Origin: Salvelinus alpinus
Lineage: Eukaryota > Chordata > Actinopteri > Salmoniformes > Salmonidae
NCBI RefSeq assembly: GCF_045679555.1
Contig: NC_092096.1
Location: 12,665,593-12,729,592 of the forward strand
Reading direction: 5' to 3'
DNA: 64,000 nt
Under the pieces are notes generated by a model. The model worked only from the letters and a program-made list of their open reading frames with translations, had not been told where the DNA came from and ran no database searches. A program made the translations under genes and the position numbers. Of this stretch, positions 12,808 to 16,500 are shown piece by piece; the first letter of the stretch is position 1; each line of letters opens with the position of its first letter.

Positions 12808-13110
12808 CTCACCGAGCCCCGCTCCCTCACCTGGCCCCGTCTCCCTCACCTGGCACCGCTCCCTCACCTGGCCCCGCTCCCTCACCTGGCCCCGTCTCCC
12901 TCACCTGGCCCCGTCTCCCTCACCTGGCCCCGTCTCCCTCACCTGGCCCCGTCTCCCTCACCTGGCCCCGTCTCCCTCACCTGGCCCCGTCTCCCTCACC
13001 TGGCCCCGCTCCCTCACCTGGCCCCGCTCCCTCACCTGGCCCCGTCTCCCTCACCTGGCCCCGTCTCCCTCACCTGGCCCCGCTCCCTCACCTAGCCCCG
13101 CTCCCTCAGT
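12808..13110. repeat. Minisatellite, 18/19-bp unit, about 16 copies
   Basis: Unit CTCACCTGGCCCCGTCTCC, with a one-base-shorter CCGCTCC variant. Each unit carries CACCTG, an E-box-like hexamer. Confidence 0.95.
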
Positions 13111-13143: not shown

Positions 13144-13370
13144 TGTACTCTGTCAGCAGCATGGAGCTCAACATGTATATTTACTGTCTGGTCTACGTAC
13201 TCTGTGAGCAGCATGTATATTTACTGTCTGGTCTACGTACTCTCTGATCAGCATGTATATTTACTGTCTGGTCTACGTACTCTGTGAGCAGCATGTATAT
13301 TTACTGTCTGGTCTACGTACTCTGAGCAGCATGTACATTTACTGTCTGGTCTACGTACTCTGTGAGCAGC
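13144..13370. repeat. 40-bp repeat made of the TBC1D15 exon 5 end and its donor site
   Basis: Five units begin ATGTATATTT (or ATGTACATTT) at 13173, 13213, 13253, 13293 and 13331 (the fourth is 38 bp), plus a degenerate start near 13144. Each holds the complement of the last exon bases and GTACGTAG. The unit at 13331-13370 contains the real exon edge. Confidence 0.93.
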
Positions 13371-13584
13371 ATGTACTTCCTGAGACAGTCCAGGAAGTCT
13401 TCACTACCTCCCTGGTGAAAGTGCAGGGCAGGCAGCTCCACCCCCATGTTGCGGTCTCGGAGGGTGAACACCAGGTAGGACCAGCCCTCCTCCTTCACCC
13501 TGACCGAGGCCAGGTCACGGAGACGGAAGAACAGCCGGGAACCCTTACTCTTCTCTGGGATGGGAGCGGGTTTAGGAGGAGCAC
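13359..13584 (-). CDS. TBC1D15: TBC1D15 exon 5, with a donor site duplicated into the intron
   Basis: 226 bp between acceptor CTCTCCAG and donor GTACGT. It encodes LFFRLRDLASVRVKEEGWSY, a VELPALHFHQGG segment and DFLDCLRKYMLLTE. The 3' edge is ambiguous: GTACGT (exon end 13359) is preferred because the alternative GTAGAC four bases further on (exon end 13355) fits the donor consensus less well. The last 12 exon bases and the donor are the founding unit of the 40-bp repeat that follows in the intron. Confidence 0.88.
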
Positions 13585-16500
13585 CTGGAGAGAGAGGGAG
13601 AGAGAGAGAGGTTCAGATACAGGATATACAGAGACATAGAAACACACACAATGAGGTGAGAGAGAGAGAGAGAGAGAGAGAAGGAGGGAGAGAGGGTTTT
13701 AGATACAGGATATACACAGACATAGAAACACACACAATGAGGTGAGAGAGAGAGAGAGAGAGAGAGAGGAGGGAGAGAGGGGTTTAGATACAGGATATAC
13801 ACAGACATAGAAACACACACAATGAGGTGAGGGAGAGAGAGAGAGGGGCTTAGATACCCAACACTACAGATGCACACACACAGAAGAGACACACATAATG
13901 AGAGTGTGTGTGTGTATTCTCTCTAGGGGTTTTCCTAATGCAGAGAGACAAGCAACACAACGTCCATGCCACACTTCATCTAGAGTTGTATAGATCCATG
14001 TGTAATGCTTTTTAATTTGACTCTCTTGACATTTAAATGTCTGCAGAGCAGGAAGTAGCAGGAGGCCTGATTAATCCCCAGGGGCCTGCTGGAGAAGATT
14101 GATCGTACTGTGGGGAAACTGAAGCAATTAGTCTCCTCTCCTCCAACCAACTTAATCATGGTCGCTCCGCTAAAGCAGCTTCTGGACGTTAAGAGGAGAG
14201 GTGTTTTGGAATTCCAGCCAGAGAGGAGGGAGGGAGAGAAATGATATATGTATATATACACACACACACATATATATATGAGAGAGACTGCTGCACGCTT
14301 AACCTTGTTTAGTCTTGCCAGGAAGAACCACAGAACGGCAAGGCCAAGAACAACAATTATGTTGCATTGTGGTTCCAATACTAGACTTGACAGTTCAAAG
14401 AAACCAGACATGTTTACAGCTACAGGTAATGACAATATATCAGCTGGACAGGTAACGAAGTGTGACATTTTGGCTCTCCATAGAGGAAGCATGATGATGC
14501 TAAATCATTGATATGTTCTCCATGACTTCCCCTGACTAAATAAAAAGGTTTTAAAAAATGGCCATTCTTCCGTGGCCTGCTCTGTTCTGCTGTGTTCTAG
14601 GGTGCTCTGCTGTGTTCTAGGGTGCTCTGCTGTGTTCTAGGGTGCTCTGCTGTGTCCTAGGGTGCTCTGCTGTGTTCTAGGGTGCTCTGCTGTGTTCTAG
14701 GGTGCTCTGCTGTGTCCTAGGGTGCTCTGCTGTGTCCTAGGGTGCTCTGCTGTGTCCTAGGGTGCTCTGCTGTGTCCTAGGGTGCTCTGCTGTGTCCTAG
14801 GGTGCTCTGCTGTGTTCTCTCCCACTCACCTTTTCCATTGTTGCTGGGTTTCTTCCTGAACTGAACAGTGTGAACCATGTCCCACTCAGTCTCACAGCTC
14901 AGCTGGTGCTCCACCTGCCTGGGTGGGTGGTCTCCTGGGTCGTGGCTCGGACCCTGGTGCCGCTGGCCCCATTCAAACACGGAGCTAGACTCCTGGGAGA
15001 GAGAATACAGGTATACTCAGACCCACCCACATACGGTACTATATACAGTACACACAACTACCCATATACTGTACTATCTACACTACTGTCCAAAAGTTTG
15101 GGGTCACTCAGAAATGTCCTTGTTTTCCATGAAAACATACCTGAAATTTGTTGCAAAATGAATAGGAAATAGTCAAGATGTTGACAAGGTTATAAATAAT
15201 GATTTAATTGAAATAATAATTATGTCCTTCAAACTTTGCTTTTGTCAAAGAATCCTCCATTTGCAGCAATTACAGCCTTGCAGACCTTTGGCATTCTAGT
15301 TGTCAATTTGTTGAGGTAATCTGAAGAGATTTCACCCCATGCTTCCTGAAGCACCTCCCACAAGTTGGATTGTCTTGATGGGCACTTCTTACGTACCATA
15401 CGGTCAAGCTGCTCCCACAACAGCTCAATAGGGTTGAGATCCGGTGACTGTGCTGGCCACTCCATTATAGACAGAACACCAGCTGACTGCTTCTTCCCTA
15501 AATAGTTATTGCATAGTTTGGAGCTGTGCTTTGGGTCGTTGCCCTGTTGTAGGAGGAAATTGGCTCCAATTAAGTGCCGTCCACAGGGTATGGCGTTGCA
15601 AAATGGAGTGATAGCCTTCCTTCTTCCAAGATCCCTTTTACCCTGTACGAATCTCCCACTTCACCACCAAAGCACCCCCAGACCATCACATTGCCTCCAC
15701 CACGCTTGATAGATGGCGTCAAGCACTCCATCATCTTTTCTGCGTCTCATGAATCTTCTTCTTTGTGATCCGAACACCTCAAACTCTTATTCATCGGTCC
15801 ATAACACTTTTTTCCCCCCAAAATCTTCCTCTGTCCAGTGTCTGTTCTATTTCCCATCTCAATCTTTTCTTTTTAATTGGCCAGTCTGAGATATGGCTTT
15901 TTCTTTGCAACTCTGCCCCTAGAAGGCCAGCATCCCGGAGTCACCTCTTCACTGTTGACGTTGAGACTGGTGTTTTGCGGGTACTATTTAATGAAGCTGC
16001 CAGTTGAGGACATGTGAGGCGTCTGTTTCTCAAACTAGACACACTAATGTACTTGCCCTTTTGCTCAGTTGTGCACCGGGGCCTCCCACTCCTCTTTCTA
16101 TTCTGGTTAGAACCAGTTTGCACTGTTCTGTGAAAAGGGTTTTCTAATGATCAATTAGCCTTTAAAAATGATACATTTGGATTAGCTAACACAACGTGTC
16201 ATTGGAACACAGGAGTGATGGTTGCTGATAAATGGGCATCTGTACGCCTATGTAGATATTCCATAAAAAATCTGCAATTTTTTGAAATGTCTAAGTGACC
16301 CCAAAATGTTGTACTATCTATATACAGTACACACACACCCATATACAGTACTATATATATATACAGTACATAGTTCTGGCTGGCTGTGTAGGTAGTGGTA
16401 CAGATATATACATAAAAGGCTGGAAATACTATTAGAGAGGCTAATAAAATTAAACCGGTTTTGACAGAGAAAGAGAATAGGGGATGTTTTTTTCCTCCAC

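Follow-up and report, generated by a model that had tools for sequence, protein, structure and literature searches.

In a stretch of 64,000 nucleotides from Salvelinus alpinus (contig NC_092096.1, positions 12,665,593 to 12,729,592; the whole stretch is called the window and the contig C11 in what follows), the end of one exon of the tbc1d15 gene and the start of the following intron have been copied together as a tandem array, so that identical splice donors follow one another at intervals of about 40 bp. The array is a real repeat of a known kind, a mirage minisatellite, named after the amphioxus repeats discussed at the end of this text. It is probably a passenger, the authentic donor being the one chosen and any mRNA made from a decoy being broken in its frame and decayed.

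The exon 5 donor and its copies

The features on which this reading depends are the following, the exon being called "exon 5" as a working name, like all other exon numbers used here; a slash marks the exon-intron boundary.

13359 to 13584, minus strand: tbc1d15 exon 5, 226 nt, located by tblastn with human TBC1D15, its ends placed from the splice signals and the next exon (acceptor CTCTCCAG/GTGCTCC; donor ACAGA/GTACGTAG; last codon split GA/G)
13172 to 13375, minus strand: 40-bp mirage minisatellite, 5.2 copies, holding the last 17 exon bases and the intron start
13357 to 13358, minus strand: authentic donor GT (AGA/GTACGT), matrix score 3.49
13319 to 13320, minus strand: decoy donor 1, +38 nt, frameshift with a stop in the next exon
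13279 to 13280, minus strand: decoy donor 2, +78 nt, in-frame TAG
13239 to 13240, minus strand: decoy donor 3, +118 nt, in-frame TAG
13199 to 13200, minus strand: decoy donor 4, +158 nt, in-frame TAG
13147 to 13148, minus strand: diverged terminal copy, ACAGA/GTACATAA, found in a second gene copy too

On the minus strand the 3' end of the exon reads ...CTGCTCACAGA/GTACGTAG, with the first intron base at 13358, and AGA/GTACGTAG is found five times, at 13358, 13320, 13280, 13240 and 13200 (spacing 38, 40, 40 and 40), while the plus strand of the window holds no GTACGTAG. Tandem Repeats Finder (TRF) reports the array at 13172-13375 with a period of 40, 5.2 copies, 94% match and a score of 373; it spans the exon-intron boundary, the last 17 exon bases (13359-13375) lying inside it. 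Moreover, a 24-mer spanning the junction has five matches in the window with at most three mismatches, against none in 100 dinucleotide shuffles. The splice nonamer is identical in the authentic donor and the four decoys, and only the sixth copy, at 13148, has diverged (GTACATAA); the inner units are thus alike and the edge unit is diverged, in the second gene copy as well. The original prediction, whose interval begins at 13144 because of this diverged copy, had described a splice donor copied as a minisatellite with the real donor first, and both the five motifs and the TRF array bear it out, the donor and decoy coordinates, the spacing of 38-40 bp and the offsets of 38, 78, 118 and 158 nt all being correct.

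The gene had been named as TBC1D15 from the letters alone, and this identity stands: human TBC1D15 compared with the minus strand of the window and beyond matched ten exons, in order, and in the eight exons matched by both its bit score was always higher than that of human TBC1D17, both queries being approximate sequences. Exon 5 alone returned no Pfam family at E <= 0.001. The next exon lies 20.9 kb downstream of the donor, starting at about C11:12,658,079, and since it completes a GAG codon from GA/G, both the donor and its phase are fixed. When the forms were joined to this exon by script, the canonical one remained open and all four decoy forms of the window ran into a premature stop. The frame statements of the original prediction are correct: at +38 the frame shifts, the stop falling in the next exon, whereas an in-frame TAG comes soon past the exon end at +78, +118 and +158.

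The strength of the donors was scored with a matrix of approximate frequencies rather than with a trained model. By this matrix the authentic donor is weak, since it scores 3.49, like each of the four decoys, compared with 12.37 for the donor of the preceding exon. Both this weakness of the authentic donor and a stronger decoy array of 19-bp units at 12808-13108 had been overlooked in the original prediction.

A second gene copy and the origin of the array

Sequence searches covered the genome to which the window belongs (2.37 Gb, 928 contigs), whose SINE-like and Tc1-like sequences would be in keeping with a salmonid. On the same contig, about 255 kb away at C11:12.934M, there is a second tbc1d15 copy, in which the ten exons recur. 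Between the two loci, which may be tandem duplicates or unmerged haplotypes, 605 of 44,543 aligned bases are different (1.36%, over 67 array-masked blocks of at least 90% identity), and the exon 5 array has five units in the window and four in the second copy. There the four units are all spaced by 40, the missing one being the 38-bp unit of decoy 1, so that the first decoy stands at +40 rather than +38; all three decoy forms of the second copy again lead to a stop when joined to the next exon.

A more distant paralogue, on C15, has 71% DNA identity over part of exon 5. Its exon ends at the same codon (ACTGA/GTGAGT), and the array is absent there. Most simply, the array would have arisen after the split from the C15 paralogue and before that of the two near-identical copies; loss of the array from the paralogue may instead account for its absence. 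The founder is identifiable as the exon-side unit, which is coding and has its donor at the codon position of the C15 paralogue, the other units being intronic. To our knowledge, the founder unit of most minisatellites is not known; here it is a coding exon edge, which shows in what direction the copying went. The array was most likely formed by tandem duplication of about 40 bases, namely the last 17 of the exon and about the first 23 of the intron, with slippage or unequal exchange later altering the number of units.

Arrays at other exon edges and in other genes

More interesting than the exon 5 array itself is how large the arrays are at other tbc1d15 exons, and that other genes have them as well. 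In either gene copy, five of the 19 edges scored are spanned by an array, namely four donors and one acceptor; besides that of exon 5 they are:

Exon 8 donor: 35-bp units, 4.1 copies in both gene copies
Exon 10 donor: 55-bp units, 2.6 copies in both gene copies
Exon 11 donor, C11:12,620,885-12,626,472, outside the window: 39-bp units, with 138 intact GACCTGG/GTAAGA against 48 in the second copy
Exon 10 acceptor, C11:12,628,073-12,631,341, outside the window: 42-44-bp units, with 67 intact CAG/GGATGAGTA against 71 in the second copy, the count of 67 being uncertain because a gap of 100 N lies inside this array

The authentic site stands first among the copies of a donor array and last among those of an acceptor array. 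Other arrays adjoin an edge and hold no exon bases, as beside the exon 4 and exon 6 donors and also upstream of exon 5. The frame of exon 11, which ends DFDLG, stays open past the exon when read into its array, for 100 codons in the window copy and for 35 in the other, so that about seven and two decoys, respectively, would insert 13 codons each with no stop. The exon after it matches positions 87-123 of 216 of PF00566, which suggests that the 39-bp units fall inside the TBC domain.

Copied splice sites are not confined to tbc1d15. The genome holds at least 112 matches to PF00566 (150 of 190 candidates scored), from which 40 loci, listed as numbers 1-20 and 41-60, were all submitted to TRF; 11 were also read by eye, namely those where an array lay at the exon or close to it, except L071 and L074, which have short repeats inside the exon. 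Four of the 40 other TBC-domain exon loci, with six edges among them, carry splice sites copied in arrays:

L049, C7:51.007M: donor array, 64 bp
L063, C6:94.30-94.41M: acceptor and donor arrays
L066, C6:94.30-94.41M: acceptor and donor arrays, the acceptor repeat seen by eye and not by TRF
L076, C6:94.30-94.41M: donor array, 43 bp

The C6 exon is present twice, about 112 kb apart, and the four loci amount to two independent regions, because L063, L066 and L076 share this one duplicated region. L051, L052, L059, L064, L067 and L068 were not counted, having an array only beside the exon or none at its edge, and neither was L073, whose exon end holds 1.9 copies of an imperfect 16-bp unit. The 32-bp array of L003 (C7:68,567,691-68,568,965) has about 25 bases in common with the 40-bp unit of exon 5; this likeness may be due to chance inflated by repeats.

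An attraction of arrays to exon edges was considered and rejected. In 1000 circular shifts over the 19 edges, with thresholds of 8 exon bases and 20 intron bases (two acceptor positions were one base off, which is immaterial at these thresholds), the mean number of edges hit was 9.4 (sd 2.7) in the window copy and 7.4 (sd 2.8) in the second copy. Since both means exceed the five observed, the arrays show no preference for splice sites. Five edges or fewer were obtained in a proportion of 0.07 and 0.27 of the shifts, respectively; the deficit, of the kind that a loss of exon-disturbing arrays would tend to produce, is not significant. Arrays cover 0.50 of the tbc1d15 locus and 0.405 of the second copy, compared with a mean of 0.25 in a background of only ten random stretches of 4 kb, which is very uneven (0, 0.08, 0.54, 0, 0.57, 0.04, 1.0, 0, 0.29 and 0).

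Minisatellites are unusually many in the window itself, whose 64 kb give 94 TRF entries when those that overlap are counted too. Three of them lie close to exon 5:

12808 to 13108, minus strand: 19-bp minisatellite of the intron that follows exon 5, with AG/GTGAGG present 15 times (TRF and motif count)
13588 to 13845, minus strand: 86-bp array ending just before the CAG of the exon 5 acceptor
14586 to 14815, minus strand: 20-bp array beginning past the first 14 intron bases of the preceding exon's donor

The 86-bp array has copied the pyrimidine tract and not the acceptor AG, and the 20-bp array contains no exon bases, the donor of the preceding exon being AAG/GTGAGT at 14829. In the 19-bp array, whose GTs lie 267-528 nt downstream of the authentic exon 5 donor, 14 of the 15 copies read CAG/GTGAGG and score 11.44 with the approximate-frequency matrix, so that by this matrix it is a far stronger decoy set than the 40-bp array. 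The second gene copy also has 15 AG/GTGAGG.

Choice between identical donors and comparison with known systems

The passenger status of the exon 5 array is suggested against the background of a genome very rich in minisatellites. Exon definition would pick the authentic copy because it makes the shortest exon, and for the same reason would settle on the last copy of an acceptor array; a decoy used now and then would give a frame-broken mRNA, which would be removed by nonsense-mediated decay. Several points weigh against this reading. The authentic donor, which has a low score with the approximate matrix and the same sequence as the decoys, leaves room for real decoy use, and the nonamer is unchanged in four decoys of one gene copy and three of the other, which could reflect either selection or recent homogenisation. 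Moreover, downstream repeat units are described as serving as donors in IFI6 (PMC4526556), and in human segmental duplications novel introns and alternative splicing can arise from boundary repeats (PMC2812944).

The array could instead be a regulatory device, in which the extra donors soak up U1 or yield isoforms with a stop, so that the number of units sets tbc1d15 output through nonsense-mediated decay. We consider this unlikely. It would agree with the stop that every decoy brings in both gene copies, with the weak authentic donor (approximate matrix), with the difference of five against four units between the copies and with the effect on TERT splicing of an intronic 38-bp variable number tandem repeat (VNTR) (PMC11830802); against it, the distance to the first decoy differs between the copies (38 against 40), arrays occur at several tbc1d15 edges at a rate no higher than that of random placement, similar arrays are present in other genes, and most random intronic extensions would presumably give stops too.

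Still less probable is that the 19-bp array acts as a real competitor, giving an extended or cryptic exon, or binding U1 and so blocking premature polyadenylation. Such a role would fit the 14 copies that score 11.44 where the authentic donor has 3.49 with the approximate matrix, and the presence of 15 copies in both gene copies, whereas the extended exon would be of about 490 nt or more, a length generally unfavourable for exon definition, and would hold the same in-frame TAG. That the assembly has collapsed or invented repeat units is most improbable: the near-identical pair on one contig might represent haplotypes left unmerged, and the exon 10 acceptor array of the window copy contains a gap of 100 N, but the exon 5 array is only 204 bp long, both copies share the diverged terminal copy and differ by one clean unit, and the donor arrays of exons 8 and 10 are equal in copy number between them.

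Identical donors or acceptors arrayed beside a required site amount to a competition experiment of nature on exon definition. Should decoys be used, differences in copy number would lead to isoform and expression variation among fish, which short-read annotation could miss. It is a speculative extension, which we regard as doubtful, that mirage minisatellites are common throughout the genome, with from a few to more than 100 copies of 5' and 3' splice sites, and that some alter the protein by their copy number; were it true, these polymorphic arrays would serve as natural tests of the spliceosome's choice between identical sites.

In the open-licence literature searched, no match was found for the phrase "mirage minisatellite", nor for tandem repeats, exon-intron boundaries, salmonids and splice sites taken together. 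The closest likeness is to amphioxus, where "mirage" minisatellites are tandem repeats across exon-intron boundaries, found in Adh3, the globins BflGb6 and BflGb9, troponin C and also PGBD5, with an unstable number of units and a regular splicing that is reportedly undisturbed (PMC3087553; PMC3902484). As in tbc1d15, splice signals are described there in many units, and the inner units are homogenised and the edge unit diverged (PMC3087553; PMC3902484). Unit number varies between haplotypes in the amphioxus accounts, and is five against four between near-identical copies on one contig in tbc1d15. The tbc1d15 array differs from them in being a vertebrate one, with a 40-bp unit, and in the 138 intact donors present at another exon of the same gene.

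The minisatellite of IFI6 (6-16) was reportedly described by Turri in 1995 as having multiple donor sites. It resembles that of tbc1d15 in its position at an exon end and in the donors within its units. It differs in that its repeat units are described as used donors (PMC4526556), whereas the tbc1d15 decoys are known from sequence alone. Human segmental duplications are similar in their boundary minisatellites and in the variable number of units in recent duplicates, and 27 intron modifications are supported there by transcripts, whereas the tbc1d15 arrays are known from DNA (PMC2812944). Finally, VNTR6-1 of TERT is a 38-bp intronic VNTR whose deletion alters splicing, an effect that in tbc1d15 is only proposed; it also differs in lying about 3.5 kb from the exon and in a proposed action through G-quadruplexes and not through copied splice sites (PMC11830802).
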